The notes below the pieces were generated by a model. That model had not been told where the DNA came from. It saw only the letters and a program-made list of their open reading frames with translations, and did no database searches. DNA of 64,000 bases from contig CANLYR010000002.1 of NCBI GenBank assembly GCA_947495425.1, forward strand, positions 1 to 64,000, given 5' to 3'. Shown in pieces: positions 12,599 through 54,093 of this stretch; positions within the stretch are counted from its first letter, which is position 1, and each line of letters starts with the position of its first letter. The stretch comes from an uncultured Aquimarina sp. GTDB taxonomy: Bacteria > Bacteroidota > Bacteroidia > Flavobacteriales > Flavobacteriaceae. The position numbers were made by a program, and so were the translations under genes.

Positions 12599-12603
12599 TT
12601 AAG

Positions 12604-34959: not shown

Positions 34960-36888
34960 CTAGGCAAGAATTTCTTGTTTCTCTTGAATAGTTTCTTTGT
35001 TGATTTTATCTATACTCTCGAACGTAGAATTATTAGAAATGTATTCCGGTACAATTTCTTTTAATTTTCCAACGATTTGATGATCTTGATTAAGTAAATT
35101 CATAATACACAGATCATCTATTTTATCTTTTACATTAGCACAATCATTATCATCAAATTTACTTATCATGATTTTCTTATGATATGTAGGTAACGTATTT
35201 TCTGTATCAGCAAGTAGTTCTTCATACAACTTCTCGCCTGGCCTTAACCCTGTAATTTTTATATCTATATCTTCTGGATAGTTAAGCCCGGATAATCGAA
35301 TCATTTTCTTTGCAAGATCAAATATCTTTACAGATTCTCCCATATCAAAAATAAAAATTTCTCCTCCATTGCCCATGGTTCCTGCTTCTATAACCAATTG
35401 GGATGCTTCAGGAATTGTCATAAAGAATCTTGTAACACTCTGGTGAGTAACAGTTAAAGGACCTCCTTTAGCTATTTGTTTTTTGAAAAGTGGTATTACT
35501 GACCCATTAGACCCTAATACATTACCAAATCGAGTGGTTATAAATTTAGTTTTACTAGTGCTATGTAAGCATTTTATATACATCTCTGCTACTCGCTTGG
35601 TAGCACCCATTACATTAGTAGGATTAACTGCTTTGTCTGTTGATACAAATACAAACTTATCTACTCCATAGTGTGATGATAAATCTGCAAGTTTTCGAGT
35701 ACCTAAAACATTAATTTTAATAGCCTCGCATGGATTAGACTCCATTAATGGAACATGTTTGTATGCCGCAGCATGAAAAACCATATTAGGTCTGTGCTTT
35801 TCAAATATCATTTCTATTCGTTGGTGATCACGAATATCTGCTACTATAGGAGTGAAATTAGTGATTCCTTTACTCAAAAGTTCTTGTTGCAGGTCATATA
35901 AAGGTGATTCTGCCTGATCAACCAAGACTAAATTTTTGTAATTATAATAAGAGGCTTGTCTAACAATCTCGCTTCCGATAGAACCTGCAGCTCCCGTAAT
36001 CATAATCACTTTATTATCAAGCTCTCTTTTTATATTTTGATTATCCATACATATAGGAGCTCTATCTAACAAATCTTCTATTTGTATTTCTTTAATTTGA
36101 GAAACGTTCAATTTTCCGTCTATCCAATCATTTACAGCAGGAATTATCTTTACAACGACAGAAAGTTTAAGTAAATGATCTGATATTTCTGCTAATCTTT
36201 TTTTGTCTATATGCGGTATTGATACTACAATCTCTTTAATAGCATTTTTGGTAATAAAATTTTGATTTATAGCGGTTGATGAGTAAACTTTAATTCCATT
36301 AATCGTTTTTCCTATTTTTTGAGAATTATCATCTATAAAACCAATAACCGCAGACGATCTATTAGAATCATTTGCTATAGCCGCTTGGGTAATTAATCCA
36401 GAATCGCCAGCTCCATATATCAAAACTCTTGAAGTCTCTCCTAGTTTTGATTTAATATAATAGTAGCAATACTTAAACAACAAACGACTTGTAGTAAGCG
36501 TAATAATGTTTAACATATAATGGATACAAATTATCGATACTGGAATATTTAAAAGTTCTGGCATTAAGGATAGCCTACTTGAAACCATCAAAAAGCCTGT
36601 GAGCGCAATCAAAACTGTAACTGCTAGAAATAAATTATAAGCATCTCTCATTCCTGTATGCCTCACTACTCCCTTATACGAACCTATGAGTAAAAAACTC
36701 AATATTGCCAATCCGGCAACAATAGGTATTTGATATACCAAGTTAGACGTATCAAAATTAAGCGTAATCCCAAACCTAATTACATACGCTAAAAAGAAGT
36801 TGAAAATAGTGATCAGTACATCGATAGATAGCACTAGCCATTTTGATGCATGTCTGTGGGAATTATTTATTAGGTAATTCTTTATCAT
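34960..36888 (-). CDS. pglF: PglF/CapD-like UDP-sugar 4,6-dehydratase
   Basis: This membrane-anchored NAD-dependent enzyme converts UDP-GlcNAc to UDP-4-keto-6-deoxy-GlcNAc. The 642-residue protein has four N-terminal transmembrane helices (about 15-140), a CoA-binding-like Rossmann fold (IYGAGDSG near 158) and a dehydratase Rossmann domain (ITGAAGSIGSEI near 297). The active site shows STDKAVNPTNVMGATK near 415-430, with Met in the usual Tyr place, as in PglF/WbpM. It overlaps the aminotransferase by 4 bases (ATGA), so the two steps are coupled. A 219-base gap separates it from wza. Confidence 0.93.
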   Translation of the reverse strand: MIKNYLINNSHRHASKWLVLSIDVLITIFNFFLAYVIRFGITLNFDTSNLVYQIPIVAGLAILSFLLIGSYKGVVRHTGMRDAYNLFLAVTVLIALTGFLMVSSRLSLMPELLNIPVSIICIHYMLNIITLTTSRLLFKYCYYYIKSKLGETSRVLIYGAGDSGLITQAAIANDSNRSSAVIGFIDDNSQKIGKTINGIKVYSSTAINQNFITKNAIKEIVVSIPHIDKKRLAEISDHLLKLSVVVKIIPAVNDWIDGKLNVSQIKEIQIEDLLDRAPICMDNQNIKRELDNKVIMITGAAGSIGSEIVRQASYYNYKNLVLVDQAESPLYDLQQELLSKGITNFTPIVADIRDHQRIEMIFEKHRPNMVFHAAAYKHVPLMESNPCEAIKINVLGTRKLADLSSHYGVDKFVFVSTDKAVNPTNVMGATKRVAEMYIKCLHSTSKTKFITTRFGNVLGSNGSVIPLFKKQIAKGGPLTVTHQSVTRFFMTIPEASQLVIEAGTMGNGGEIFIFDMGESVKIFDLAKKMIRLSGLNYPEDIDIKITGLRPGEKLYEELLADTENTLPTYHKKIMISKFDDNDCANVKDKIDDLCIMNLLNQDHQIVGKLKEIVPEYISNNSTFESIDKINKETIQEKQEILA

Positions 36889-38018
36889 CTCAACATATTT
36901 TTAATTACTGATACAATTCTATATAAATCTTCTTCTTCAAGATTTGACCCGCTTGGTAGGCAAAGTCCGCGTTCAAATAAATCATCAGAAATTCCATTGA
37001 GATAAGTACTACAATCTGCAAATACAGTTTGTTGATGCATGGGTTTCCATAGTGGTCTTGATTCTATATTTTCTTTAGCCAGCAGAAGTCGTATTTCTTC
37101 TCTTAGCTTATAAGAACTGGTTTCTATACAGGTAAGCCATCTGTTAGAATAATAACCAGAAGGCTCATCTAAAAATCGTATCTCTGAAGAATCTGATAGA
37201 TGTTTTTTGTAAAAATCAAAATTTCTACGTCTATTATTAACATGCTTGTCCAACACTTCCATTTGACCTCTTCCTATGCCTGCAGTGATATTGCTCATCC
37301 TATAATTATATCCAATTTCTGAATGTTGATAGTGAGGTGCATTATCTCTAGCCTGAGTAGCTAAAAAGATGGAACGATCTTTATGTTTCTGTTGTTTAGA
37401 AACTAAAGCACCGCCTCCAGAGGTTGTAATTATTTTATTTCCATTGAAAGAAAGAATAGCAATATCGCCAAAAGTCCCACACTTTATTCCGTGATAAGAA
37501 CTTCCTAAAGCTTCTGCACTATCTTCTAAAACAGGGATTTTATATTCTGATGAAATACGATTAACAGCCTCAACATTATATGGCATACCATATAAATGAA
37601 CTGCAACGATGGCTTTCGGTTTTTTTCCTTTTGCAATTCGATCCTTTATTGCTATCTCGAGTTGTTCCGGACAAATATTCCAAGTATCACTCTCACTATC
37701 GATGAATATTGGTTTTGCACCAAGATATACGATTGGATTAGCTGAAGCAGCAAAGGTAAGGCTTTGACATAGTACTTCATCACCTGAAGTAACTCCTAAT
37801 AATTTTAAACCTAAATGTAAAGAAGCCGTACCAGAGCTTAGTGCTGCGGCAAAAACATCTTGACCGAGATAAGTTTCTAAATCATTTTCAAACCCGTCAA
37901 CATTTGGACCTAGCGGTGCTACCCAATTTGTATCAAAAGCTTCTTTTACGAAATTTTGCTCTGTCCCACCCATGTGCGGTGAAGAAAGCCATATTTTTTT
38001 TGAATCAATTATATTCAT
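36885..38018 (-). CDS. pglE: DegT/DnrJ/EryC1 aminotransferase (PglE-like)
   Basis: This PLP enzyme aminates the 4-keto sugar made by PglF, giving a UDP-4-amino-6-deoxy sugar. Of 377 residues, the key ones are Asp in VLEDSAEALGSSY and the PLP Lys in SFNGNKIITTSGGG near 192. ALSSGTASLHL binds the cofactor phosphate. I chose the ATG at 38018 (MNIIDSKKIWLSSPHMGG), matching how relatives begin; an ATG at 38042 would add eight residues. It is the first gene of the pglE-pglF-wza-wzc series. Confidence 0.92.
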   Translation of the reverse strand: MNIIDSKKIWLSSPHMGGTEQNFVKEAFDTNWVAPLGPNVDGFENDLETYLGQDVFAAALSSGTASLHLGLKLLGVTSGDEVLCQSLTFAASANPIVYLGAKPIFIDSESDTWNICPEQLEIAIKDRIAKGKKPKAIVAVHLYGMPYNVEAVNRISSEYKIPVLEDSAEALGSSYHGIKCGTFGDIAILSFNGNKIITTSGGGALVSKQQKHKDRSIFLATQARDNAPHYQHSEIGYNYRMSNITAGIGRGQMEVLDKHVNNRRRNFDFYKKHLSDSSEIRFLDEPSGYYSNRWLTCIETSSYKLREEIRLLLAKENIESRPLWKPMHQQTVFADCSTYLNGISDDLFERGLCLPSGSNLEEEDLYRIVSVIKNMLR

Positions 38019-38606
38019 AATTCTCCCATTAATAATGAACAATAATCTGCTATCGATTAGAGATTACTTAAAATCTATAACCGAAAGTCTTTTCATGACA
38101 ATCTAAAAAACGCTGGAAGAAGGGGGTAGAAACTTCCTTATTTGAAATTATTCTAATTATATATTTTCCTTGTTGCTAAAATAGTTTAGTTAGATCAATT
38201 ATTTATTTTTATTTTTATTTTTTAGACACAATACCTAAAAACAAGCTAAACAGCTATAATTAGATGAAAGACCTACATAAATTACGTTAATACCGTAAGA
38301 AAAAGATTATAATTATTTACAGAATTTTAGTTTGGTTCTATACAAACTCCAATTTTTTAAACTGATTTTATCAATCTACAACCCATTAAATTTTATTTAA
38401 CTAAAAAATTCCCCTAAAATAGATGCTATTTTTAGCTAAATGCTAGTGATCTGATTAAATCACATAATAATACAATATTACTTTATTATTTACTGAAACC
38501 ATTGAGGATAAAAACTGTTTTTTTGGGGGTATTTACCCCCTTTATAACTAAAAAAAGTAGCAAACATTAATTGAAATGACTTAAATTTTTTTCAATTCAC
38601 TATAAA

Positions 38607-38912: not shown

Positions 38913-40364
38913 ATGCTGTTTAATTCTATAGATTATATTGTCTTCTTGCCATTAGTATTCTTTATATACTGGTTTTTTTTCAATAAAAAATTACAAATTC
39001 AGAATATATTTCTTCTAGCTGCCAGTTATTTCTTTTATGGTATTTGGGACTGGAGGTTTTTATTGTTGATACTTGCCAGTACTATTTTAGATTTTTTTGT
39101 GGGTCAACTTATTTATTCGAGCGACACTAAAGGCAAGAAAAGAAAGTGGCTGTGGTGTAGCGTCATTTTTAATATTGGACTATTAGGCTTTTTTAAATAT
39201 TATAATTTTTTTATAGATTCATGGATTGACCTAGCCTCTGTATTTGGATATCAATTACACAATACATGGACCCTAAAAGTTATATTGCCGGTAGGGATAT
39301 CATTTTACACTTTTCAAACGATGTCGTATAGTTTTGACATATATTATAAGAAAATTACACCTACCAAAGATTTTATATCTTTTGCGACCTTTGTCAGTTT
39401 TTTTCCTCAGCTAGTAGCAGGTCCCATTGAAAGAGCTTCAGATCTTTTACCGCAGATTCTAAATAAAAGAACTTTTCGATACGATCAAGCAGTAAGTGGT
39501 TTGAAACTTATATTATGGGGATTTTTTAAAAAGCTAGTCATTGCTGATTCACTTGCTCCAATTGTAGATGATATATTTACGAATTACGATAATCATTCAT
39601 CAACTACATTACTAATCGGAGTATTCTTTTTTTCTTTTCAAATTTATAGTGATTTTAGCGGCTATTCTGATATTGCAATCGGCACAGCCAAATTATTTGG
39701 AATTGAATTAAGTAGTAATTTTAAGTTTCCCTACTTTTCGAGAAATATAGCCGAATTTTGGCGAAGGTGGCACATATCGTTATCTCGATGGTTTCGAGAT
39801 TATGTATATATTCCTCTTGGCGGCTCTAAAGACACACTATGGGCTTCAATACGTAATGTCTTCATCATATTTTTAATAAGTGGGTTCTGGCATGGGGCAA
39901 ACTGGACATTCATTGTTTGGGGAAGCATACACGCATTATTGTTTTTACCACTATTTGTATCAGGTAAAAACAGAAAATTCCTCGATGCATCAATAGCAGA
40001 TAAAACGTTATTTCCTTCATTACAGGAATGTGCACAGGTTATAATTACATTTTTTATGGTAACATTTTCCTGGATTTTTTTTAGAGCAGAATCATTAACG
40101 CATGCCTGGGGATATTTAAAGTTGATATTTTTCAATACTAAAATTCATAGTTATACTCATCCATTAGGCTATCGAATGCTTGATTACTTTATAGTAATTA
40201 TTGTGTTTATCATTTATGAATTTTGTATTCGAAAAAATGAGAGAAATCCATTCATATCAAAGTCAAGATATGTTAGGTTTTTATGTTATACTATACTCTT
40301 ACTAGCGATACTATTATTTTATGATGATCAAATAGATAGATCATTTATATACTTTCAATTCTAA
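38913..40364 (+). CDS. MBOAT O-acyltransferase 1 (AlgI-like)
   Basis: This inner-membrane acyltransferase passes acyl groups, usually acetyl, across the membrane for polysaccharide O-acylation. The 483-residue protein has about ten transmembrane helices. It shows the MBOAT core FWRRWHISLSRWFRDYVYIP, LGGS, and the catalytic His in SGFWHGANWTF near residue 327. It ends in FIYFQF, as do the other two MBOAT proteins here. An SGNH partner starts 11 bases later. It is the most divergent of the three copies. Confidence 0.93.
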   Translation: MLFNSIDYIVFLPLVFFIYWFFFNKKLQIQNIFLLAASYFFYGIWDWRFLLLILASTILDFFVGQLIYSSDTKGKKRKWLWCSVIFNIGLLGFFKYYNFFIDSWIDLASVFGYQLHNTWTLKVILPVGISFYTFQTMSYSFDIYYKKITPTKDFISFATFVSFFPQLVAGPIERASDLLPQILNKRTFRYDQAVSGLKLILWGFFKKLVIADSLAPIVDDIFTNYDNHSSTTLLIGVFFFSFQIYSDFSGYSDIAIGTAKLFGIELSSNFKFPYFSRNIAEFWRRWHISLSRWFRDYVYIPLGGSKDTLWASIRNVFIIFLISGFWHGANWTFIVWGSIHALLFLPLFVSGKNRKFLDASIADKTLFPSLQECAQVIITFFMVTFSWIFFRAESLTHAWGYLKLIFFNTKIHSYTHPLGYRMLDYFIVIIVFIIYEFCIRKNERNPFISKSRYVRFLCYTILLLAILLFYDDQIDRSFIYFQF

Positions 40365-40375
40365 ACCAAGAAAAG

Positions 40376-41332
40376 ATGATAAAGCTAATAAAAAAAAGTA
40401 TCCTGTATGGTTTTTTTCTAATCCTTGCATTAGAAATTCTGGTAAGGGTATTTTATTTAGGAAAAGATAATCCTACACGATACCTAGATCAATTTAGCGT
40501 AGAAAAATGGGAACCCAATCAGCATGGGTTTTCTATAACCGGCAATCGAAAACAAAATTTTTCAGAATATCGGATTAATAGTTCAGGGTTTAATTCCTAT
40601 AGAGAATTTTCTCCTTCTTTAAATAAAACAGAAATTGCAATAGTAGGAGATTCTTTTATAGAGGGGTTTCATCAGGATTATTATAACTCAATAGGAAAAA
40701 AAATTGAAAACTTACTACCCAATATCGAAGTCTATGAATATGGATATGCAGGATATGACATGGCAGATCAATTGCACCTTATCTACCAATACAAAGAACA
40801 GTTTGAATTAGTAGATCATGTAGTAATAAATCTAGAGTTTTCTACTGATTTGACACGTAGTGAGTATGGTGTTATAAGAGATAGGCTTGCGCTGGAATCT
40901 AGAACCAATAAACTTTTGAAAAAAAGTAAGCTACTTGTTTATTCTAAAAGTATTGGAGTACTTGATCCCATTAAAAGGTTTGTGTCTGGAAGTATTATTT
41001 TTTTTAAGCAATTATTAAACAAAAGTGAAATTAACACCAACAAAACCAAAGCAATAGCACTCAAAAAAGAAAATAAGTATATAGACAATTTTAAAAGTCT
41101 TGTATCACACTATGGTTATGATAAAGACCGTTTTGTTTTATTATTAGATACAAAGACGACCAGCCCCTTATTTCTTTCATATCTAAATAGAAATAATTTT
41201 GAATATCTTGATTTCTCTAAGGCGTTTGAAACTTCAGACACTCCAACAACTTTGATATATGACAAACATTGGAATAATCATGGAAGAAGTTTAATTGCAC
41301 ATCTAATTACTGAATATATTAGAAAAAAATAA
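40376..41332 (+). CDS. SGNH-like protein paired with MBOAT 1
   Basis: This 318-residue protein has an N-terminal membrane anchor (about 8-26) and a periplasmic SGNH/GDSL-type fold. Block I with the nucleophile Ser is IAIVGDSFIEG near 95, and the C-terminal block is DKHWNNHGRSLIAH, carrying Asp and His. AlgJ/AlgX-like partners transfer the acyl group from MBOAT to the sugar, and the position 11 bases after an MBOAT gene supports that role. It is convergent with the FemAB-like gene 24 bases away. Confidence 0.82.
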   Translation: MIKLIKKSILYGFFLILALEILVRVFYLGKDNPTRYLDQFSVEKWEPNQHGFSITGNRKQNFSEYRINSSGFNSYREFSPSLNKTEIAIVGDSFIEGFHQDYYNSIGKKIENLLPNIEVYEYGYAGYDMADQLHLIYQYKEQFELVDHVVINLEFSTDLTRSEYGVIRDRLALESRTNKLLKKSKLLVYSKSIGVLDPIKRFVSGSIIFFKQLLNKSEINTNKTKAIALKKENKYIDNFKSLVSHYGYDKDRFVLLLDTKTTSPLFLSYLNRNNFEYLDFSKAFETSDTPTTLIYDKHWNNHGRSLIAHLITEYIRKK

Positions 41333-41356: not shown

Positions 41357-42397
41357 TTACTCATCACTTCTGTACTTTGGGAAAAAATCACCCTCAGCAT
41401 TTAAATCTGAAAATTGATCTGTTAATTGATCGTATACTTCTTGATTGACTATATATTTCCAAATTTCAAAATTTTTAAAATCTTTAGAGAAAGAGGATTT
41501 AAACCTAAATAACGAATCTTCAACACTCCCCAAACCTCCTCCTAAATTAAAATATTGATACCCTTCTAAGGTTCCTCTGACTCTCATTTCATCAATCAAT
41601 AATCGAACTGGAGTAAGATGTAAATAATCATTTCTTGTTCCTGATATATGATATTGTATAATATCATTAGTTTTTATCATCATAGCCGCAGAAATAATTT
41701 CTTTAGTTTCATTATAGATTGCTAGCAATAGATCTGTTTGAAAATCATTACTATTTATAAAATAATCAAAATAGTCTTTTGTAAAGTAATACCCTTTTTT
41801 TGCGTTAACCCTATCCATATTTTCATAATAGAGCTTTATGAAAGTAGATACATCTGCCTTTGAATTACTTAGCCTTATAGAACATTGTTTTTTACCTTTA
41901 TTGATGTATCTTTTTGTGGTTTTGGAAAAAATGTGTCTCTGGTCATCAAGCGTTTTTGTTAAATCAATATTTACAACTCTTCCTAACTGAACGAGATCTC
42001 CTATTCCTTTTAGAATTAAATCCTGATCGCATATGTAGGGATTTAATCTTGAAAATACAGAGATGATATTATTCTTGATGAAAAATTGATTCAGCTGATT
42101 TTTAAAATTAAAATTATCAAATGCTGCGTTTAAATTATTATGTATGGGACCTACGTAACCATAAACAGATGTAACATCAAAGTAATCGGTATCAAAGATT
42201 CTTCTAAGCAACAAAGGTAAGCCAATGATATTCCCCTTAGACTCATATTTGATAAGTATTGGTTTTTCATCATTGGATTTAGAAAGATAATGATAGTCAT
42301 AGGTATGGTAAAAATCATAGAATTTTACTTTATTCAAAAGATTCTGCCAACTCTTTTTTTCGACAATAATCTCAATATTTAAGATTGCCGAACTCAT
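41357..42397 (-). CDS. FemAB-like acyltransferase A (GNAT fold)
   Basis: This 346-residue protein has the tandem-GNAT layout of FemAB/BioF2-like (Acetyltransf_6) acyltransferases, which move aminoacyl or acyl groups onto amines. Landmarks are TKRYINKGKKQCSIRLS near 157, a IYNETKEIISAAMMIKTND strand pair and the YFNLGGGLGSVEDSLFRFK block. It ends FFPKYRSDE, matching FFPLYR-type ends of its neighbour. It is 3 bases after the paralogous gene, so the two form an operon. The acyl donor may be tRNA or ACP; sequence does not decide. Confidence 0.8.
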   Translation of the reverse strand: MSSAILNIEIIVEKKSWQNLLNKVKFYDFYHTYDYHYLSKSNDEKPILIKYESKGNIIGLPLLLRRIFDTDYFDVTSVYGYVGPIHNNLNAAFDNFNFKNQLNQFFIKNNIISVFSRLNPYICDQDLILKGIGDLVQLGRVVNIDLTKTLDDQRHIFSKTTKRYINKGKKQCSIRLSNSKADVSTFIKLYYENMDRVNAKKGYYFTKDYFDYFINSNDFQTDLLLAIYNETKEIISAAMMIKTNDIIQYHISGTRNDYLHLTPVRLLIDEMRVRGTLEGYQYFNLGGGLGSVEDSLFRFKSSFSKDFKNFEIWKYIVNQEVYDQLTDQFSDLNAEGDFFPKYRSDE

Positions 42398-42400
42398 ATT

Positions 42401-43507
42401 TTATTCATTTTGCCTATATAAAGGAAAGTAATTCTTACTAATATCATTTATATCCTGAACATTGGTTAAATCATTTTTTATGATAAGTTCGCTATAAACT
42501 TCTTTATTAATTATTTTTCTCCCAGTGTAATATACAACATCATCATCATTTGGAAAAAACGACTTTTTATATTTGTATAGCCCATCCCCATCTACTCTAC
42601 CGCCACCAAGCACATAATATTTATAATCATTTTCTCTTGCCCAGTTCATTATTTCGATTTTTAAAAAATCATTTGGTCTGGTAAAAAAATAATCTGACAA
42701 TGTACCTCCCAGGTATGAATATAGCGTATTTTCATCTTTTAATATTAGCTCAGTCGAAATAGGTGTGTCATCCTTATAAACAATTGCAATAATTCCGCTT
42801 TCAGGATTTTCTGAGATAAAGTTTGTAAAATAATCGATATAAAAAAAGTACTGATCATGCGCTTCAATACGTTGCATGGTCTGAATATAAATATCGTAAA
42901 AATCCTTAACAATTTCTAAGTGTATCGGAGCTGTATATATTTCAATTCTAAGACCTTCTAATACAGCTTTTCTATGATTATTCCTAACCTTAGATTTAAA
43001 ACCAGCCCATTGATCGTCTTTATCTAGCAACACCCCTTTTACATTCTTCAAACTAGGAATAAGCTCCCCAGAGTATCCTGTATGATTACCATTGAGACTA
43101 AATCGAATAAATTCACTTACAACATCCTCTTTTTGATACCATTGATCTACTTTTTCCCAAAAAAGCTGTACCGTTATGGTATTAGCTTCTTTCTCATCAA
43201 ACAATGGACCACTATAACCATAAGGAGAAATTACATCTTTGTATGGTGTTTTTTCTCCATTCACAATAATGTTTCTTACATAAAAAGGCATGATCACAAC
43301 TGGCTTCTCATCTTTTTTAAAAATAAAATAACGCAGCTGGTGTTTATTCATGTCTGTGGTACCTAATAATTCTGTCTTATAAAAGGGATTAGAATTATTA
43401 AGTTTCTTGATCGATTTTTTATATATTTCTAAATCTTCTTCATTCTCAATTTTATAAGCGCTGAAGCTTGCATTCACATTAGTAGTATTAAAGTAGTTGT
43501 CTCCCAT
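42401..43507 (-). CDS. FemAB-like acyltransferase B (GNAT fold)
   Basis: A 368-residue paralogue of the next gene with the same family layout. It shows KSKVRNNHRKAVLEGLRIEI near 165, TPISTELILKDENTLYSYLG, and the YYVLGGGRVDGDGLYKYKKS block with NYFPLYRQNE at the end. It has no signal peptide or membrane helix. It is first in a two-gene transcript after a 202-base spacer. It lies next to sugar-activating genes, so transfer to an amino sugar is plausible (inference). Confidence 0.8.
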   Translation of the reverse strand: MGDNYFNTTNVNASFSAYKIENEEDLEIYKKSIKKLNNSNPFYKTELLGTTDMNKHQLRYFIFKKDEKPVVIMPFYVRNIIVNGEKTPYKDVISPYGYSGPLFDEKEANTITVQLFWEKVDQWYQKEDVVSEFIRFSLNGNHTGYSGELIPSLKNVKGVLLDKDDQWAGFKSKVRNNHRKAVLEGLRIEIYTAPIHLEIVKDFYDIYIQTMQRIEAHDQYFFYIDYFTNFISENPESGIIAIVYKDDTPISTELILKDENTLYSYLGGTLSDYFFTRPNDFLKIEIMNWARENDYKYYVLGGGRVDGDGLYKYKKSFFPNDDDVVYYTGRKIINKEVYSELIIKNDLTNVQDINDISKNYFPLYRQNE

Positions 43508-43709: not shown

Positions 43710-44321
43710 CTATTCATTATCTCCTCCTGTAAATACAGGCATATTTAGATTATCATTACTATTCACTCCTTCCTTCAACACTACCTTTTTAATAGTTTTT
43801 ACTATAATCTTTATATCCAAAAAAAAGGATAAATTATCCACATACCAGACATCATATTCAAATTTCTGTTTCCAACTAATTGTGTTTCTACCATTAACTT
43901 GTGCCCAACCAGTTATACCTGGCTTAACATCATGTCTACGTTTTTGCCAATCCTTATATAAAGGTAAATATTGTTCTAATAATGGCCTGGGGCCAATTAT
44001 ACTCATATTACCCTTTAATACATTGAATAATTGAGGAATCTCATCTAGGGAATATTTTCTCACAAAAGCTCCAGTTTTAGTAATTCTATCTTCATAAGGT
44101 AATAGTTCACCGTGCTCATCCTTTTTATCATTCATGGTCTTTAATTTAATAATACTAAACAATGCTCCTTTTTTCCCAGGACGTGATTGAAAGAAAAAGG
44201 GGTTACCATTATTTGCGAAAATCAAAATAACGATTACAATTATTAAAATCGGTGATAAAAGAAATAGTCCGACTAAGGCGGCAAAAAAATCAAAACAACG
44301 TTTTAAAAACAGTCTATACAT
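43710..44321 (-). CDS. Small phosphoglycosyl transferase 1 (PglC-like)
   Basis: This monotopic enzyme transfers a phospho-sugar from UDP-sugar to undecaprenyl phosphate, starting repeat-unit assembly. The 203-residue protein has an N-terminal re-entrant hydrophobic helix (about 10-32). The bacterial sugar transferase core has KLKTMNDKKDEHG, the catalytic Asp-Glu dyad in YSLDEIPQL near 115, GPRPLL and PGITGWAQVNGRN. It lacks the extra N-terminal helices of WcaJ-type proteins. It lies 17 bases downstream of the ACP gene. A closely similar gene is at 48082-48699. Confidence 0.93.
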   Translation of the reverse strand: MYRLFLKRCFDFFAALVGLFLLSPILIIVIVILIFANNGNPFFFQSRPGKKGALFSIIKLKTMNDKKDEHGELLPYEDRITKTGAFVRKYSLDEIPQLFNVLKGNMSIIGPRPLLEQYLPLYKDWQKRRHDVKPGITGWAQVNGRNTISWKQKFEYDVWYVDNLSFFLDIKIIVKTIKKVVLKEGVNSNDNLNMPVFTGGDNE

Positions 44322-44338: not shown

Positions 44339-44578
44339 TTATATTTCAGATTGGATCGTTTTGATTAAATCGCCAACATTATTCATATTCATCAAATCCA
44401 TAAGCTTGAATTTAATGTTGAACAACTTTTCGATTTCTGAAATGATCATCATGTGTGTTATGGATTCCCATCCATCTACATCATTTGCTGTGGTTTCATC
44501 GGTAAGCTCGAAATTACTATGCGCTAAGACATTTACAAAAGCAGTATTCACTTTTTCTATTATTTCTTCTTTATTCAT
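44339..44578 (-). CDS. Acyl carrier protein
   Basis: This 79-residue carrier protein is acidic and helical. The phosphopantetheine-attachment Ser is at residue 39 in VDGWESITHM, the usual DSL position with W-E-S-I variation. It lies 14 bases downstream of the adenylation gene, so it is probably the dedicated carrier for the activated acid (as DltC is for DltA). It is not the fatty-acid ACP, which in bacteria is normally next to fab genes. Confidence 0.9.
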   Translation of the reverse strand: MNKEEIIEKVNTAFVNVLAHSNFELTDETTANDVDGWESITHMMIISEIEKLFNIKFKLMDLMNMNNVGDLIKTIQSEI

Positions 44579-44592
44579 TGATTTTAATAAGG

Positions 44593-46095
44593 TTAGTTAT
44601 TAGTTGTTTTAAAAAGTTTTTTTAATGCTTTACGATCTATCTTTCCGTTAACACTATGAGGAAGTTCTTTTATAAACCTCACATGAGTTGGTATCATATA
44701 TGCAGGCATCTTCGTTTTCATGTATTCAAACATAGCATCTGTATCAAACTCTTCTGATTCTATAGCAAGCCCTAATTCTGAGTTTCCGAGAGTATTCAAA
44801 ATATCTATGGCTACAATGTTTATTTTTTCGGATACGGCTTTAGCATGAAATTCAATCTCTGAAAGCTCTACTCGATACCCTCTGATCTTTACCTGAAAAT
44901 CTGCTCTACCAACATACATAAAATCTCCTTCTTCATCTTTAAAACAAAGATCTCCTGTCTTATAATATCTACGATCTTCTTCTCCAACTTTCTTAGAGAA
45001 AAATGCATAATCATTACGTTCTTTATTTCTCCAATACCCCGGTGTTAATTGGCAACCTGCAAGACATAATTCTCCTGAGACTCCTGTTGGAACCTCCTGA
45101 TTTTCTTCATTCACGACCATATATTCTACATCATAGAGCGGTACTCCAATAGAGAGTATCCCGTTATGAGATTTATGATTAGCATCTTTATCATAAGGAT
45201 AATATCCACTATAAACTGTATATTCAGTTGGTCCGTAATAATTAAATATCTTACAATTAGGGATACAATCACTCCATTCTGAAGCAATATCTGCATGCAG
45301 TGCTCCTCCTCCAAAACTACAATATCGTACATCTGGAGCATTGATTTCATCAAAGTACGGCCTTAAATAATTAATAATTGAAGGCACCATTGTAAGTACG
45401 GTAAGCTTTTGTTCATTAATAAGCTTGAAAATATAAAAATACTTAATCGCATTCTTGGGAATTGTATAAATACAAGATCCATGCAGCAAAGGAAATAAAT
45501 ACGCCACTACCGAAAAATCAAATGTAAGCTCAAACATTTGGAGGCATTTATCTGAAGATACAAGATTAAACGCTGTATCTTTTTCTACGGCGCTTACTAA
45601 TCCATTCACATTACCATATGTAATCGGCACCCCTTTTGGAGTTCCTGTTGTGCCCGAGGTAAACAAAATATAAGCCAATTGGTCATCTGAAGTTTTTTTT
45701 GGCTCCAAATCAATTTCGGTTTCTACTCGCTTTTTAGATGATATAACTTTATGATATTTATATAATGAAACTTCTGAAGAATCTATGACATATTTTGTTT
45801 CTGTAAGTTCAAAAATTTTGATATTACGCTCTAATGGTGTTTCAGGATTAACAGGCACATATGCTTTCCCCTCCAACCACAATGCAATAATTGATGCATA
45901 TGTTTCAATATCATCATTAGTAACTAACCCTATTAACTTCTCGGTATCATCTATAGTATCATGTATTACCGACCGTATCATTGAAACTATTTTTGAAAAT
46001 TCATAATACGTATAAAAAGTATTGTTTATACAAAAAGCATTGTGATCATAATGCATTTGTATAGATTCTTTTATTTTATTTATGAAGTATATCAT
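44593..46095 (-). CDS. AMP-forming adenylation enzyme (DltA/NRPS A-like)
   Basis: This ATP-dependent enzyme activates an amino or organic acid as an adenylate and loads it on a carrier protein. The 500-residue protein has the core motifs in order: LFTSGTTGTPKGVP (A3) near 140, NYYGPTEYTVYSGY (A5), YKTGDLC (A7), YVGRADFQVKIRGYRVELSE (A8) and VNGKIDRKALKK (A10, catalytic Lys). It is a stand-alone domain of normal length, and the ACP gene follows at 14 bases. The substrate acid cannot be told; D-alanine is only the best-known example. Confidence 0.92.
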   Translation of the reverse strand: MIYFINKIKESIQMHYDHNAFCINNTFYTYYEFSKIVSMIRSVIHDTIDDTEKLIGLVTNDDIETYASIIALWLEGKAYVPVNPETPLERNIKIFELTETKYVIDSSEVSLYKYHKVISSKKRVETEIDLEPKKTSDDQLAYILFTSGTTGTPKGVPITYGNVNGLVSAVEKDTAFNLVSSDKCLQMFELTFDFSVVAYLFPLLHGSCIYTIPKNAIKYFYIFKLINEQKLTVLTMVPSIINYLRPYFDEINAPDVRYCSFGGGALHADIASEWSDCIPNCKIFNYYGPTEYTVYSGYYPYDKDANHKSHNGILSIGVPLYDVEYMVVNEENQEVPTGVSGELCLAGCQLTPGYWRNKERNDYAFFSKKVGEEDRRYYKTGDLCFKDEEGDFMYVGRADFQVKIRGYRVELSEIEFHAKAVSEKINIVAIDILNTLGNSELGLAIESEEFDTDAMFEYMKTKMPAYMIPTHVRFIKELPHSVNGKIDRKALKKLFKTTNN

Positions 46096-46103
46096 TTTTT
46101 AGA

Positions 46104-47201
46104 TTAATAAAAATGTCCGTCTCTATTATATAGTGTAAGTTTATTAAAATCTAGTTGAGTTTCTTTGTGTGCTAAGGCCTTTTTTAAGACTTTGTAAGTA
46201 TACAAGGTTCTAAATTTATCATGTATCGCTTTGTATAACCTTGTATCATCGGTAAAAATAAAACTAGCCTGTATGCTTATAAAATGATCAATTAATGCTT
46301 CAACACAGATATCGTAGTTTTTATCTTCATCTACCAGAAAATATTTTACATTAAACTCTTTATGATTTATAGTAAATGACAAAAATCCAACTAATGTTTC
46401 ATTACTTATAATTTTCACATTATGTATATGTATATTTTTCCCGTTTCCAACTTGTAATGATTGATATGGATATCTTTTCCCTATTGGTATTTGTGTATAT
46501 TGAACAGTACTGATCTGCCAATTCACATATTCTTTTGTTTTATGAATGAGATCATGTTTGCACAATGGTGCTATAAACTCCCAGGTTTGGTTATCTAATT
46601 GAGTAATATAGTCATAAGTAAGTTGCTTCACAGCACTCCTAAGTCTTCGTTTATTAAGGAACCTAATCGCAGCACTAACGAAAATATTGGTCTTGTCAAT
46701 TAAGAACTTAAAATGTTTCAAAAATGAAAATCTACCTATAAGTATAGAAGAATCTAAACTAAAAAATATAGTGTATCGAAGTCTGGATGTTAGAACCTCA
46801 AAAGGTTGTTTGGCATAAAAATCATTTACTTTTTCTGCATAGGATTTAATAATTACCTGTTTATCGGCTAGATTAATCGCTTCATTATAAATGTATGTTC
46901 CCAGAACTGTGTTTTCATATTGATCGTCTACCCACCAAAGGATCATCCAATATATTTTTTTTATTTCATTATTATGTAATGCAATAAAATCAGGAAGCAT
47001 ATAGATAAAAGAAATCATTTTATCATTCTCGAAACCAAGAACCCCACAATAATCATCCTCTTCTATTCTATCATTAGAAATAAGCCATAATGCTTTACTT
47101 TTGGGCAAGGGTACTGTACTATCTTTCCAATAGGTGTTGTTATCAATAGCTTCTCGCAGTACTTTTTTTGTTAAAGGAAGTATTTTTAAATCCTTACTCA
47201 T
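46104..47201 (-). CDS. GNAT-like acyltransferase candidate
   Basis: I do not recognise this 365-residue protein by name. Two GNAT-like strand-helix patterns are visible: residues 45-130 (YCGVLGFENDKMISFIYML, NTVLGTYIYNEAINLA) and residues 195-345 (ETLVGFLSFTINHKEFNVKY). It has no signal peptide or membrane helix. It lies 8 bases upstream of the adenylation gene and 6 bases downstream of the formyltransferase gene, so it belongs to the same module. It is a candidate for the transferase using the loaded ACP; this is inference. Confidence 0.65.
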   Translation of the reverse strand: MSKDLKILPLTKKVLREAIDNNTYWKDSTVPLPKSKALWLISNDRIEEDDYCGVLGFENDKMISFIYMLPDFIALHNNEIKKIYWMILWWVDDQYENTVLGTYIYNEAINLADKQVIIKSYAEKVNDFYAKQPFEVLTSRLRYTIFFSLDSSILIGRFSFLKHFKFLIDKTNIFVSAAIRFLNKRRLRSAVKQLTYDYITQLDNQTWEFIAPLCKHDLIHKTKEYVNWQISTVQYTQIPIGKRYPYQSLQVGNGKNIHIHNVKIISNETLVGFLSFTINHKEFNVKYFLVDEDKNYDICVEALIDHFISIQASFIFTDDTRLYKAIHDKFRTLYTYKVLKKALAHKETQLDFNKLTLYNRDGHFY

Positions 47202-47207
47202 CCCCTA

Positions 47208-47840
47208 TTATTTCTTAAAATGTAACTTTTCAATTTTTTTAAAAGTCTTAACAATTAATCGTTTTCCTTTCTTAGCAAATTTAGGATACAAAGTCTCAAA
47301 CGTATCATTATCATTAACTTTGATAGCAGATTGACAAAGGATCAACCCCTCATCAAGCTTATCATCAATAATATGGGTTGTAATTCCTGTTATTTTTACA
47401 CCATATTCTAATGCATCTTGAATTGCTGTTTTTGTACCTAAAAAACTGGGGAACAGTGAAGGATGAATGTTGATAATCCTGTTGGGGAAAACAGACAACA
47501 TTTCGTCCTTTATTATATATTTAAAATTGAGCATAAATATATAATCAATATTTCGTTTTTTGATCTCCTCGATCAACTTTTTTTGGTATGCCACCAAATT
47601 AGGGAAATCACTTTTATAAAGCTGTAGTGTTTCGATTCCAATTTCTTTTGCCAAATCTGCTGCACCACAAGGTTCTTGTTCATATATTAAAAAAGAAATG
47701 TTACTTTTTTCAAATTTCTTTTTCTTAAAAGCCACAAGGGTATCTTTGGCATTACGCCCCCATCCTGTAACAAGAATTGCCCAATCAATTTTCTTTTCTA
47801 CCTCCATTTCAATGTTAAAACCCTTAAAAAACCGATACAC
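47208..47840 (-). CDS. Formyltransferase-family protein, probable sugar N-formyltransferase
   Basis: This is a folate-dependent formyltransferase-fold enzyme. The 210-residue protein has the catalytic Asn and His in NRIINIHPSLFPSFLG (about 122-124) and the catalytic Asp in HIIDDKLDEGLI near 158, so the triad is intact. The fold resembles PurN/methionyl-tRNA formyltransferase, but the polysaccharide-locus context suggests transfer of formyl to an amino sugar. An internal Met at residue 12 (47807) is an alternative start. It is preceded by a 241-base spacer after the second phosphoglycosyl transferase. Confidence 0.85.
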   Translation of the reverse strand: MYRFFKGFNIEMEVEKKIDWAILVTGWGRNAKDTLVAFKKKKFEKSNISFLIYEQEPCGAADLAKEIGIETLQLYKSDFPNLVAYQKKLIEEIKKRNIDYIFMLNFKYIIKDEMLSVFPNRIINIHPSLFPSFLGTKTAIQDALEYGVKITGITTHIIDDKLDEGLILCQSAIKVNDNDTFETLYPKFAKKGKRLIVKTFKKIEKLHFKK

Positions 47841-48081: not shown

Positions 48082-48699
48082 TTACTCTTCAGCCCTTCTT
48101 TCATCATCCAAATTCATTAGTACAGATTCAGGGTCTACAACGATATCCTTTGATGTGATGATATTTTTAATCGTTCTTAATACAATTTTAAAATCAAGCA
48201 AAAAAGAGCGATTCTCAACATAGGTGACATCTAATGCTAATCTGTCATTCCAATTCAAAAGATTTCTTCCTGATACTTGGGCTAAACCTGTAATACCAGG
48301 TCGAATTGAATGTCTAACTCTTTCATTCTCTCTATAATACGGCAAATAACGTATCAGTAATGGTCTTGGTCCAATAAAACTCATTTCCCCCTTGAGTACA
48401 TTAATAAGTTGCGGCAATTCATCAAAAGAAGTTTTTCTTACAAAACTACCTATTATTGTTAATCTATCTTTATCAGGCAATAGGTTTCCACGATCATCAG
48501 AACGATCATTCATAGTTTTAAACTTAATAATACTAAAGATTTTTTCGTTCTTTCCTGGTCGTTTCTGTACAAAAAATGGTTTCCCATGGTTAACTATTGC
48601 CAAAAAACAAGTAATTAGTAAAAAAACTGGAGCTATCAATAGCAGTAGCATCAATGCTGCGCTAAAATCCAAAATTCGTTTAATGAATAAAGTGTACAC
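48082..48699 (-). CDS. Small phosphoglycosyl transferase 2 (PglC-like)
   Basis: This 205-residue protein belongs to the same family as the gene at 43710-44321. It has an N-terminal hydrophobic helix (about 10-32), KFKTMNDRSDDRG, the Asp-Glu dyad in TSFDELPQL near 115, GPRPLL and PGITGLAQVSGRN. All catalytic residues are intact, so both copies look active. It is 12 bases downstream of the glycosyltransferase gene, which probably adds the next sugar. It may start a different glycan from the first copy, or use a different amino sugar. Confidence 0.93.
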   Translation of the reverse strand: MYTLFIKRILDFSAALMLLLLIAPVFLLITCFLAIVNHGKPFFVQKRPGKNEKIFSIIKFKTMNDRSDDRGNLLPDKDRLTIIGSFVRKTSFDELPQLINVLKGEMSFIGPRPLLIRYLPYYRENERVRHSIRPGITGLAQVSGRNLLNWNDRLALDVTYVENRSFLLDFKIVLRTIKNIITSKDIVVDPESVLMNLDDERRAEE

Positions 48700-48711: not shown

Positions 48712-49863
48712 TTATTTGGTAAGCGTTTTATATTCTTCTAGCAAACAATCCCAAACGTATTTGCGTTCATATCGCTCAATAATCATTGACCTGGTCTTTT
48801 CTGATAATCTAGAAAATAATGCTTTATCCTCAATCATCCGCTTCATGTGAGTATACAAACTATCACGATCTTTTGGAGGAATTATAATCCCATTTTCCAT
48901 ATGCTCTATAATCTCATTACATCCATTTATATCTGTAACAATACTTGGCAGCCCCATTGAACCTGCCTGCATCACTACATTAGGAAAACCTTCTCTATAG
49001 CTAGCAAAAGTTAAAACATCTGAAATAGCAAAAAATGGTCTTACATCATTTTGCCAACCAGCAGCTATTATATTAGGGTTAGTGTTAATTTCTATCTCTG
49101 TTTCTGGCATTATGGGATCGAGTTCTTTCTCATAAGGCCCGACAAGCAATAATTTTGCATTCTTGTATTCTTTACTAAGTAAAGTAAAACTATTAATTAA
49201 TTCGTTAATCCCTTTATCTGTTACCAATCGACCAACATAAATAAATACAAAATCTGATTCGTCTATGCCATGTTTTAGTTTGAAAACAAGGTTTTCTTTA
49301 GACGAATATAATGCTGGGTCAAAATGTGAGGTATCTATACCATTAGAACTACCTTTAGCGATTACCTTAAGTTTTGTTGGAGTAGTATACGCATTGTTTA
49401 TTATAATATCTTTAAGAACAAATGAGTTGGGGTAGATCATTGTTGCACAAGAATACGTTATTTTTTCAACGATATCCAAAAGCTTTCGTTTTGGTCCTTG
49501 TGCTTCAAGAAGAGGTAATCCAGCAATCGTGTGCAATCGATGAGGAACTCTTGCCAGTTTTGCGGCCAACATTGATACAGTTCCTGCTTTGGGTGTATGA
49601 CTGTGAACAATCTCAGGTTTCTCTTTTTTAAAAATTTTGTACAGTTGATATAATGACTTTAAATCTTGAAATGGGGTTATTTTACGAGTCATTTCTACAG
49701 GAATAACTTCGATCCCTTCTTTTTCTGAGACTTCACCAAGCGTATCTCCTCCTTTACTTGAAATGCCTATGATATGATAATGTTTAGACATAAACTTTAA
49801 CTGCCCCTGTAGTAAACCACCCAATGATATTGGAACAGTAGTAACCCGTATTATTTTTTTCAT
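48712..49863 (-). CDS. GT4-family glycosyltransferase
   Basis: This GT-B-fold retaining glycosyltransferase of 383 residues has an N-terminal acceptor domain (VTTVPISLGGLLQGQLKFM) and a C-terminal nucleotide-sugar domain with FIYVGRLVTDKGINELI. The EGFPNVVMQAGSMGLP motif has Gln where the second Glu of EX7E usually lies. Its position directly before a PglC-like gene suggests it adds the second sugar, as PglA does. It begins the minus-strand segment opposite the beta-helix gene. Confidence 0.9.
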   Translation of the reverse strand: MKKIIRVTTVPISLGGLLQGQLKFMSKHYHIIGISSKGGDTLGEVSEKEGIEVIPVEMTRKITPFQDLKSLYQLYKIFKKEKPEIVHSHTPKAGTVSMLAAKLARVPHRLHTIAGLPLLEAQGPKRKLLDIVEKITYSCATMIYPNSFVLKDIIINNAYTTPTKLKVIAKGSSNGIDTSHFDPALYSSKENLVFKLKHGIDESDFVFIYVGRLVTDKGINELINSFTLLSKEYKNAKLLLVGPYEKELDPIMPETEIEINTNPNIIAAGWQNDVRPFFAISDVLTFASYREGFPNVVMQAGSMGLPSIVTDINGCNEIIEHMENGIIIPPKDRDSLYTHMKRMIEDKALFSRLSEKTRSMIIERYERKYVWDCLLEEYKTLTK

Positions 49864-50167: not shown

Positions 50168-52294
50168 ATGAAAAAATTATTTTATTACCTATTAATCTTT
50201 ATATCAATTTTTGTCATATCCTGTAGTAGTGAAGATGTTGGAGACTCAATTCCTGATGGCGGAGAAACAGGTGAGGAAGTTGGCGAAGAAACAATTACAG
50301 ATCAACCTGAAAATGTAATTAAAACTCCCTGTGAATTTAACTTATCAAATATCAAAGCTGATGAAAAAATAGTTATAGATTGTTTACTTGATCTTAAAGG
50401 AGAAACTGTAACCATACCTTCTGGAGTTATTTTTGAATTTGAAGGAGGTGATATCATAAATGGAAAATTAATATTTAAAGGTGGTACAATAGACGGAAGA
50501 CTTTTAAGCAGTCAGCTAGAAGTTGAAGGAGATGTAAAACTTGCTAGTCCTGAATTTAAATTTTATGCTGTAAGGTGGAATATTGAAGAAGCAACCCAAA
50601 CAAAAAATCCTCTACCACCAACACCAGAGGTTGCATTTGCCAATCATGAAAATATCCAAAATGCTATTAATTTAGTAAAGGGTATGGGCGCAAATAAATT
50701 TATAATCAATAGATTAAATGTATTTTTTGATTCACAAACTTTATTTGTTCCGGCAATTCTTTTACCATCTGATTTTCATTTAGAAATGACTGAAAATACA
50801 TATTTACGTGTTTTTCCAGTAGATGGTCTAATCAGTACCAGACTCATTTATATAGACACAAAGAAAAATGTTAAAGTTTCTGGTGGCAATTTAATTGGTG
50901 ATCGATTAGAGCATGGCCCCTCTGATGGAGGCAACACTCTATTTAGTATACATGGTGGCCAAGAAATAGTTATAGATAATATTCACATCAGCTACTCTTC
51001 TGCTAGTGGCCTTACTGTAAATAGCCAGTTGTGGGAAGGTGATGCAAATTATATTCCAAGTAAAAATGTCTTAATTACAAATTGTACTTTTGACTCTAAT
51101 AGAATGAACAATCTAGAGGTTACTGATGGGAAAGATATTATCATTGATAATTGTAAATCTTACAGAGCAGGTAATGATTTAGAAGGAAAATTTGGCCCAT
51201 CTCTTGGTTTGGCTCCTCGAATAGGTATTGTAATTGAGCCTGCGTTACGTCAAGTAATTGAGCGTGTAACTGTTAAAAATAGCATTGTAGAAGAAACTAG
51301 AACTAATTCTATCTTAGTAGCAGGAGCTACTGACGTTCTATTTACAGGAAACACAGCTGATAAGGGTATAGGTTGGACATCTGCTACAAACGTGCAAGTA
51401 ACAAATAATACCGCAGGAGGAATTTTTGGAGGATTTAATGGTGATTTTGCGCTATCACAAAGTGCTAACAATGTGATATCTGGCAATACCATAAAAAACG
51501 GTGCTGTTGGTATTTATGCCACAAATGATGACATTAAGATATTTGACAATACTATTATAGATTGTGGAGCAGGAATGCAATTACAAAATCTTGCCGATAC
51601 TGAAATCTATAATAATACGATTACCAGTAGTGAAGCTGATACGGATGGTATTATAGGACAAATTGCTTTAAAAAATGTTACATTTAGAAATAACACAATA
51701 GAATTAGTAACAGGTAGGTCTATGAATATGGTAGGTGTAAACCAGGAAGCCCAATACATTGACAATAAGTTTTATCTAAAAAACAACACGATTACATGCT
51801 CACAATCAGGAGTAATACTAAATTCCAGAGGTTTTGATATCACTGGAAATAACTTTTCTACAGCTGGTTTTGGGTTAACAAATTCAAATAACATGCTAGT
51901 TAGTAATAATACTGTAACAGCCCAAACAGGAAATGTTTTTGGTATAAATAAAACCAAGTCTTCGTCTAATATCACAGTTACCGATAATACATTTGAAAAC
52001 ACAAGTTCTACACGATTGGGGGCTTATGGTATTCAAATAAATACTGTAGGAAATAACGCAGTCAACGAAGACAGCAATATAGTTGTCCGTAATAATAATA
52101 TAAAAGTTAAAGGTACTAATTATGGTATACACGCTACAGACTTCAATGGGATGACAATTACAGGTAATACGATTGAAACAGCAGAGCTTGTATGTATTTT
52201 TTTCAGAGGGAATAATTCTATAATAGAAAATAATGTAACTATAAACACTGATACAGATATACAAGGAACAAATAATCGTGTAAGCAATAATTAA
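50168..52294 (+). CDS. Surface-type lipoprotein with parallel beta-helix
   Basis: This 708-residue lipoprotein has signal and lipobox IFISIFVISC (lipid Cys near 19), followed by SSEDVGDS, an acidic start resembling the Bacteroidota surface-export signal. A linker and beta-sandwich-like region (about 30-130) leads into a right-handed parallel beta-helix (about 190-700). The helix has many Asn ladders such as NNTI, NNTA and FRNNTIELV. Such folds occur in polysaccharide lyases, epimerases and depolymerases. No catalytic motif is certain. It is a lone gene inside the locus, so polymer trimming, epimerisation or binding is inferred. Confidence 0.85.
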   Translation: MKKLFYYLLIFISIFVISCSSEDVGDSIPDGGETGEEVGEETITDQPENVIKTPCEFNLSNIKADEKIVIDCLLDLKGETVTIPSGVIFEFEGGDIINGKLIFKGGTIDGRLLSSQLEVEGDVKLASPEFKFYAVRWNIEEATQTKNPLPPTPEVAFANHENIQNAINLVKGMGANKFIINRLNVFFDSQTLFVPAILLPSDFHLEMTENTYLRVFPVDGLISTRLIYIDTKKNVKVSGGNLIGDRLEHGPSDGGNTLFSIHGGQEIVIDNIHISYSSASGLTVNSQLWEGDANYIPSKNVLITNCTFDSNRMNNLEVTDGKDIIIDNCKSYRAGNDLEGKFGPSLGLAPRIGIVIEPALRQVIERVTVKNSIVEETRTNSILVAGATDVLFTGNTADKGIGWTSATNVQVTNNTAGGIFGGFNGDFALSQSANNVISGNTIKNGAVGIYATNDDIKIFDNTIIDCGAGMQLQNLADTEIYNNTITSSEADTDGIIGQIALKNVTFRNNTIELVTGRSMNMVGVNQEAQYIDNKFYLKNNTITCSQSGVILNSRGFDITGNNFSTAGFGLTNSNNMLVSNNTVTAQTGNVFGINKTKSSSNITVTDNTFENTSSTRLGAYGIQINTVGNNAVNEDSNIVVRNNNIKVKGTNYGIHATDFNGMTITGNTIETAELVCIFFRGNNSIIENNVTINTDTDIQGTNNRVSNN

Positions 52295-54087: not shown

Positions 54088-54093
54088 GAAGAA

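Follow-up and report, generated by a model that had tools for sequence, protein, structure and literature searches.

What would a stand-alone adenylation enzyme and a carrier protein of its own be doing inside an exopolysaccharide locus, next to a transferase without any Pfam or NCBIfam name? The question is raised by a stretch of 64,000 nucleotides from an uncultured Aquimarina sp. of the Flavobacteriaceae (GenBank assembly GCA_947495425.1, contig CANLYR010000002.1, positions 1 to 64,000 of the forward strand), which we call the window. The original prediction, made from the letters of this DNA, had read four genes at 44339–47840 as one N-acylation system in which an acid is activated, loaded on an acyl carrier protein (ACP) and passed to an amino sugar, with formylation as an alternative or additional mark. 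The row itself is present as described: four intact open reading frames, all on the minus strand, separated by gaps of 6, 8 and 14 bases.

44339..44578, minus strand: dedicated ACP of 79 residues with Ser39 (PF00550 23.6 bits, cut-off 20.8)
44593..46095, minus strand: stand-alone adenylation domain (A-domain) of 500 residues, pocket code DFVTCFYVYK (PF00501 E 4.8e-59)
46104..47201, minus strand: double-GNAT transferase of 365 residues resembling N-myristoyltransferase (NMT), proposed aminoacyl-ACP:amine N-acyltransferase (AlphaFold2 model and homologues)
47208..47840, minus strand: formyltransferase of PurN/PseJ-like kind, 210 residues, GTG start (PF00551 E 1.1e-33, 117 bits)

On balance, and with some reserve, we favour a reading in which three of these proteins work together: the A-domain would charge the ACP with an alpha-amino acid, which the NMT-like enzyme would use to amidate an amino sugar. 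The interest of the locus lies more in this transferase than in the operon. A function is suggested here for a protein that no Pfam or NCBIfam model names.

A conserved trio of transferase, adenylation domain and carrier

A scan of named genomes returned 73 related loci with 74 transferase genes, 66 of the loci being full-length and seven shorter. By their titles they come from Bacteroidota, mostly from Aquimarina, together with Flavivirga, Wocania, Algibacter, Flaviramulus, Hyunsoonleella, Cellulophaga and others, and one is given as Bacteroidia only. Within the window's genus, 50 of 66 genomes carry the transferase (48 of the 58 good ones); with the 365-residue protein as query, matches came from 9 of 199 genomes in the family and from 11 of 296 in the order, nine of the latter being weak, and an alignment of the transferase as query matched 5 of 395 genomes of the phylum.

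An A-domain lies next to the transferase in 73 of the 74 cases, complete in 72 (gap –37 to 190 bases) and cut by the contig end in one (L102), and of the 72 complete A-domains 71 have an ACP after them, recognized by motif in 69 cases and individually in two. The A-domain that lacks one belongs to locus L087, where two transferase/A-domain pairs stand in tandem and the first has no ACP of its own. This arrangement (L087:7361–12860) consists of the pairs at 7361–12606, whose A-domains differ in pocket code (DATKCFHVCK and DFVTCFYVYK), and one shared ACP at 12609–12860; one carrier may here take two amino acids. Recurrence in 73 related loci shows that the set is not a product of chance. Transferase, A-domain and ACP are a conserved unit. 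The expectation that all four genes would be conserved together is therefore borne out for the trio and fails for the quartet, as the window-type formyltransferase is present in just 11 of 73 loci: the quartet is three plus one.

Pairwise distances were correlated in a Mantel-style comparison. The coefficient is r 0.89 between transferase and A-domain and 0.84 between A-domain and ACP; transferase distances correlate with those of the ACP at 0.76, of a GT4 glycosyltransferase at 0.65, of two small sugar-phosphate transferases at 0.50 (PGT1) and 0.76 (PGT2), of SGNH1 at 0.77, of FemAB3 at 0.75 and of MBOAT1 at 0.07, a low value that is uncertain, given that each neighbour was represented by a single copy per locus and that MBOAT and PGT copies may be paralogues. 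In locus L080 the trio (10001–12900) sits amid housekeeping genes: it is flanked by FtsK, LolA, LptFG and RibBA genes at one end and by genes for a DegT aminotransferase, a nitroreductase and a phage-type integrase at the other, and the stretch holds no polysaccharide locus. The trio can thus stand alone as a unit.

That the A-domain is complete, as first described, is confirmed by a full-length PF00501 match (200.5 bits, cut-off 29.9) and by core motifs that are all in place (LFTSGTTGTPKG, YGPTE, YKTGD, GRADFQVKIRGYRVE and NGKIDRK). More specific models stay below their cut-offs: TIGR01733, the amino-acid adenylation domain of nonribosomal peptide synthetases (NRPSs), gives 297.7 bits, just under 317.4, the two NCBIfam DltA models give 270.2 against 476 and 260.3 against 559.85 bits, and TIGR03098 (XrtA/PEP-CTERM acyl-CoA ligase) gives 186.2 against 592.35 bits. 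Pocket codes were read by hand from an alignment to GrsA positions, which counts against leaning on them heavily; in this reading DFVTCFYVYK is common to 49 of 73 A-domains, the window's included, DFVSCFYIYK is found in 5 and DATK(C/S)FHVCK in 12, and the remaining seven carry five further codes. The first pocket position is Asp in all 73. An Asp at this position is typical of enzymes for alpha-amino acids, and from it and the intact motifs we infer that the A-domain would activate an alpha-amino acid. The aromatic residues of the window's pocket weakly suggest a small one, e.g. Gly, Ala or Ser, and DATKxFHVCK resembles the code for Asp. Among the 73 transferases with a complete A-domain, the window's included, pocket class agrees with that of the transferase's nearest neighbour in 67 (56 + 11), the six disagreements including L087.0. 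The two main pocket classes thus mostly follow transferase similarity, which makes the choice of amino acid testable.

Ser39 of the ACP, noted in the original prediction, is indeed the serine within DVDGWESI. Since the same genome has seven matches to phosphopantetheinyl-transferase families of ACPS/Sfp type, one of them broken by a stop, the carrier can probably be primed. The genome also holds 22 other AMP-binding matches, many of them in open frames of NRPS size, such as those of 2174 to 4372 residues on contigs C16, C20, C58, C85 and C2 (228207–232469).

In the route that we propose, the A-domain would activate an alpha-amino acid with ATP, the acid would then be loaded on the phosphopantetheine at Ser39 of the adjacent ACP, and the NMT-like enzyme would move the aminoacyl group from the ACP to an amino sugar destined for the exopolysaccharide and linked to a nucleotide or a lipid, forming an amide. 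Formylation would be a separate and optional step, probably on the sugar used by PGT2 and often in loci without a PglD-type acetyltransferase.

Transferase fold, C-terminus and acceptor

The window transferase has no match in Pfam, NCBIfam or among PDB sequences. The label GNAT-like, given to it in the original prediction, is nevertheless upheld, through its relatives and predicted fold rather than through a Pfam match of its own. An AlphaFold2 model built with 56 sequences (mean pLDDT 92.1, pTM 0.89) shows a double GNAT over the whole chain; it was used in place of an earlier one from 10 sequences, in which pLDDT was 81 and fell to 46 at the C-terminus. Foldseek against the PDB placed NMT first (E 3.3e-11, TM ∼0.55) and returned several tandem GNATs as well. 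With VIA, all 50 matches listed are NMTs, at Z 18.5–19.5 over 284–307 residues with a root-mean-square deviation of 3.5–5.0 and 8–12% identity. FemX was not among the structure matches listed, which does not exclude it. The predicted fold suggests that the transferase is a double GNAT of NMT-like architecture, the similarity being mainly structural.

Membership in the FemAB family was considered and rejected, as it has no Pfam support: PF02388 and PF13480 gave no match in the window transferase, and for its 56 relatives, of whose 33 matched families 25 were listed, neither model appears in that list.

A weak profile alignment sets W89 and W90, each present in 75 of 75 transferases of the trio set, opposite the LC of the FLCV stretch of NMT, in which the oxyanion hole of that enzyme would lie; this is only a hint. 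An oxyanion hole in NMT is described in a review of the GNAT superfamily (PMC4964394).

What the original prediction missed is that the GNAT-like protein combines an NMT-like fold with a fixed C-terminus. In the alignment of 75 transferases (the 74 of the related loci and the window's) every chain ends at one and the same column. Position –5 is Asp in 74 and Glu in one, position –4 is Gly in all 75, and the chain stops four residues after the acid; the ending is DGHFY in 55 of 75, with the final residue itself variable. Among other protein sets of the same loci, several of them better conserved overall, the commonest end column holds 24–74% of the chains in 13 of 14, in sets that were filtered by length and coverage (FemAB2, with 4 sequences, was left out) and some of which mix paralogues, so that their variety is inflated. 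In the VIA alignments residue 364 or 365 of the model stands opposite the last NMT residue listed. According to the same review, the C-terminal carboxylate of NMT could act as a general base, a feature unique to NMT in the superfamily (PMC4964394). Such a mechanism would require a fixed end, and by analogy with NMT the transferase's own C-terminal carboxylate may deprotonate the acceptor amine. The family would offer a bacterial setting in which to test the carboxylate mechanism outside eukaryotes.

More distant cousins, with ∼16–23% identity to the window transferase, bear on the acceptor. A polysaccharide deacetylase adjoins or overlaps the cousin gene on the same strand in 16 of 16 loci and 14 of 14 genomes examined, recognized by PF01522 in two cases and by BLAST in the rest. 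The cousins end four residues after a GDGD motif, with Asp at –5, just as the trio transferases do with DGHFY. NodB and NodA form a pairing of deacetylase and N-acyltransferase, and one of the 56 relatives matches NodA at E 0.0013, below the cut-off. The similar pairing of the cousins favours, by analogy, an amino sugar as acceptor. Neither the 73 loci nor the window gave a match to the cousin-type deacetylases, so that the amine for the trio would have to come from elsewhere, e.g. from an aminotransferase. For a nonulosonate (Leg/Pse) acceptor, a PseC search of the window's genome gave five matches, none over the cut-off. The predicted flow of an acid through an ACP to an amine in a polysaccharide pathway thus fits what we see, formylation does not belong to it, and the sugar as acceptor is what the cousins would lead one to expect. 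Units of deacetylase and NMT-like double GNAT, often with overlapping genes, were noted in L010, L012–L020, L029, L031–L034 and L108–L113.

Several further points weigh against this picture. Eis2 follows NMT in the Foldseek results at E 1.1e-9, ∼30-fold behind, and with the poorer first model VipF took rank 1 and NMT the second. Support for NMT from sequence is thin: PF01233 is matched in 6 of 56 members, with a best E of 5e-4 (the L084 member reaches 12.2 bits against a cut-off of 25), the window protein has no match to PF01233 at E 1, and the transferase profile finds human NMT2 in the PDB at a weak E of 1.0. MBOAT1 also has a fixed end, in 52 of 52 chains, and a fixed end is therefore not proof of catalysis; the role of base could instead fall to D361, a position that is acidic (Asp or Glu) in each of the 75 chains. 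The donor of the cousins may be acyl-CoA, as no A-domain lies beside them in the 4–9 kb examined. Co-occurrence with PglE is rare: a PglE-like aminotransferase was matched within ∼10 kb of the trio in only 3 of 73 loci, L075 and L076 (75–85% identity) and L080 (29%), so that in most loci no supply of the amino sugar is visible. Finally, one transferase of 74, in L071, has no A-domain, and the ∼690 bases that remain on its 3,954-base contig hold a small protein of another kind. This protein (L071:3258–3954) is of secreted type with a glycine/histidine-rich middle, and it ends in PLDGG, a hydrophobic stretch and KK, in which we presume a resemblance to an exosortase-type sorting signal.

With these points in mind we offer a wider scheme as no more than tentative. 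Trio transferases and cousins would form a bacterial NMT-type branch that uses the C-terminal carboxylate as base, an aminoacyl-ACP as donor and an amino sugar as acceptor; the trio branch would amidate amino sugars of exopolysaccharides with amino acids chosen by the A-domain (at least two pocket classes), and the cousin branch would re-acylate sugars opened by the deacetylase.

The surrounding locus and competing explanations

The genes around the trio are of exopolysaccharide type: Wzz/GNVR/AAA, Poly_export, EpsG and MBOAT proteins, GT4 and GT2 glycosyltransferases, PGT1 and PGT2, and two FemAB-type proteins. Those to which we refer below are the following.

34960..36888, minus strand: PglF-like membrane nucleotide-sugar dehydratase (PF02719 E 3.3e-119)
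36885..38042, minus strand: DegT/LegC-family aminotransferase, possible source of the sugar amine (PF01041 E 4.7e-90; TIGR04181 379 bits, cut-off 420)
41357..42397, minus strand: FemAB/Acetyltransf_6-type protein 1 (PF02388 32.9 bits, PF13480 24.5 bits)
42401..43507, minus strand: FemAB/Acetyltransf_6-type protein 2 (PF13480 43.2 bits, PF02388 36.8 bits)
43710..44321, minus strand: PGT1, another small sugar-phosphate transferase, flanking the trio opposite to PGT2 and recurrent in related loci (PF02397 E 2e-62)
48082..48699, minus strand: PGT2, small sugar-phosphate transferase, neighbour of the formyltransferase (PF02397 E 7e-59)
48712..49863, minus strand: GT4 glycosyltransferase, recurrent near the trio (PF00534 E 6e-31)

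PglF and PglE had been placed upstream of the four genes. Both lie at 34960–38042, more than 6 kb beyond the ACP, and are transcriptionally downstream. The second of them is an aminotransferase, as predicted; its identity as PglE is less clear, the best NCBIfam model being the LegC-family TIGR04181, which it matches under the cut-off. FemAB-type proteins occur in most loci, and in the tentative wider scheme the polysaccharide product could bear amino-acid or short peptide side chains. The trio would be a conserved candidate route by which marine flavobacteria put amino acids on their surface polysaccharide.

Some neighbours deserve mention in their own right. A 708-residue protein at 50168–52294, with a lipoprotein-type signal recognized by eye, has relatives beside many of the loci, and pairs of MBOAT and SGNH-like proteins are encoded at 52651–55044 and 38913–41332. 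Fusions of a FAD/NAD(P)-binding oxidoreductase (PF13454) with FemAB-type domains, 887 to 1236 residues long, are encoded at L022:14464–18159, L023:1618–5328 and L024:3193–5856 (Pfam was run on L022 and L024), and in L021 the two parts are separate genes; they would connect a redox step with FemAB-type transfer in polysaccharide loci.

The competing explanation that survives best, in our view fairly unlikely, reverses the direction of transfer. The GNAT-like enzyme would N-acylate, e.g. acetylate, the amine of the aminoacyl-ACP from an acyl-CoA, and a PglD- or FemAB-type transferase would then move the N-acyl-aminoacyl group to the sugar. NMT does acylate the amine of an N-terminal glycine, and A-domain and ACP would offer the amine of an amino acid; moreover, 61 of the 66 full-length loci have a match to FemAB-type references, or 65 if matches to a FAD–FemAB fusion are counted. 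However, the L080 trio has no FemAB or PglD match in its stretch, and the deacetylase beside the cousins points to a sugar amine as the acceptor.

It is improbable, we think, that the system is Dlt-like. In that case A-domain and ACP would supply an MBOAT with an SGNH/DltD-like partner for esterification of the polysaccharide outside the membrane, and the GNAT-like protein would be an auxiliary. The DltA models do match the A-domain at 260–270 bits, three window MBOATs match DltB TIGR04091 at 139.5–158.5 bits, the protein at 54094–55044 passes the cut-off of DltD PF04914 (23.1 against 22.7 bits), and an MBOAT is found in the stretch of 55 of 66 full-length loci. Yet the DltA and DltB scores are far under the equivalog and subfamily cut-offs of 476, 559.85 and 375 bits, 11 of the 66 full-length loci have no MBOAT in their stretch, and the window's MBOAT/SGNH pairs nearest to the trio are on the opposite strand. 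MBOAT1 distances, taken from one copy per locus, do not track the trio (r 0.06–0.07), and the gene beside the A-domain is that of the GNAT-like transferase.

The Asn, His and Asp of the formyltransferase are intact, as the original prediction had it (N124 and H126 in INIHP, D163 in THIIDDKLDEG), and its sequence matches include PurN (E 1.1e-26), PseJ (2.6e-12) and the formylation region of LgrA (best 3.4e-11). That it is the PurN of this genome is unlikely: it scores 127.3 bits with the PurN model TIGR00639, under the cut-off of 150.1, and the genome encodes four other Formyl_trans_N (PF00551) proteins, one of PurN size in a frame of 197 residues. In all 11 loci that have the window-type gene, the gene before it is PGT2, with an overlap of 17–23 bases in 10, and the adjacency holds in the four loci in which PGT2 lies across the trio, beyond the ACP (L088, L093, L094 and L107). 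Formyltransferases of other kinds bring the total to 22 of 73 with 11 further loci (of the three reference kinds two were named by Pfam and the third by a BLAST match to the window protein alone). A formyltransferase occurs together with a PglD-type acetyltransferase in 6 loci and without it in 16, PglD alone is found in 40 and neither in 11; the two are anticorrelated (odds ratio 0.10, Fisher P-value = 5.6e–5, a descriptive value, since related loci are not independent and seven of the 73 are shorter than the others). On the simplest view, the amino sugar handled by PGT2 is formylated instead of acetylated. Formylation as part of the trio system does not hold up, and we rejected a four-gene unit: the formyltransferase tracks PGT2 and belongs, as an accessory, with the sugar pathway and not with the trio.

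An LgrA-like scheme, in which the formyltransferase would formylate the aminoacyl-ACP before transfer and the four genes of the window would be one pathway, is accordingly hard to credit. The formylation region of LgrA acts on a carrier-bound amino acid, and the match to it, the gene order in the window and, in 7 of the 11 loci, the place of the gene immediately ahead of the trio (in one of them with an intervening gene) speak for such a scheme; the better match to PurN, the slightly better one to PseJ, the attachment to PGT2 even across the trio and the anticorrelation with PglD speak against it. That the product of A-domain and ACP is a small peptide or metabolite with no link to the polysaccharide, as the many other AMP-binding matches of the genome and the position of the L080 trio outside a polysaccharide locus might suggest, is very improbable in view of the PGT genes around the trio in 64 of 66 full-length loci.

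Comparison with known systems

The favoured reading, transfer of an amino acid from the ACP to an amino sugar by the NMT-like enzyme, has partial counterparts. Eukaryotic NMT shares with the transferase a double GNAT over its whole length, an alignment that reaches the C-terminal residue, a thioester donor and an amine acceptor. It differs in sequence (8–12% identity, no significant membership) and in substrates, which for NMT are myristoyl-CoA and the N-terminal glycine of proteins; the A-domain, the ACP and the polysaccharide context argue against this activity for the window protein. DltA and DltC are a stand-alone A-domain and the carrier that it loads for a cell-surface polymer, with DltB and DltD forming an ester on export. 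NodA, with NodB and NodF, is a GNAT-type N-acyltransferase that works beside a deacetylase and takes its donor from an ACP to an amino sugar; unlike our transferase it is a smaller protein with a fatty-acyl donor.

Published systems provide further partial counterparts. In the biosynthesis of the Streptomyces antibiotics altemicidin and SB-203208, in vitro work has demonstrated transfer of an ACP-bound acid by two sets, SbzB/SbzG or SbzK/SbzC and SbzL/SbzG–SbzK/SbzI (PMC6331615). As in the trio, a stand-alone adenylating enzyme, a separate ACP and a GNAT are combined, and SbzI transfers to an amine; unlike in the trio, acceptors are small molecules, no polysaccharide is involved in what is described, and SbzC is characterized as mycothiol acetyltransferase-like (PMC6331615). 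Lincosamide synthetase, with LmbC/CcbC, a carrier and LmbD/CcbD, likewise employs an A-domain and a carrier to form an amide of an amino acid on an amino sugar, whereas LmbD/CcbD is cysteine-protease-like, with a Cys-His-Glu triad and a ping-pong mechanism (PMC4351081, PMC12945683). For the O-antigen of Flavobacterium psychrophilum, ACP-fed N-acylation of UDP-Qui2NAc4NH2 has been predicted, with WfpD as ACP and WfpG as a PglD-like enzyme (PMC6519341). There too a UDP-4-amino sugar is acylated from an ACP in a flavobacterial polysaccharide locus with PglE and PglF homologues; in contrast to the trio, the acid is of fatty-acid type, ketosynthases and a PglD-type transferase are employed, and the part of the paper available mentions no A-domain (PMC6519341).

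Among the papers listed in searches of the open-licence PubMed Central literature, none reports the trio or an NMT-like transferase in a polysaccharide locus. Against that literature, the logic of A-domain, ACP and GNAT is known; what looks new is the enzyme type, an NMT-like transferase with a fixed C-terminus, and its setting in a polysaccharide locus.

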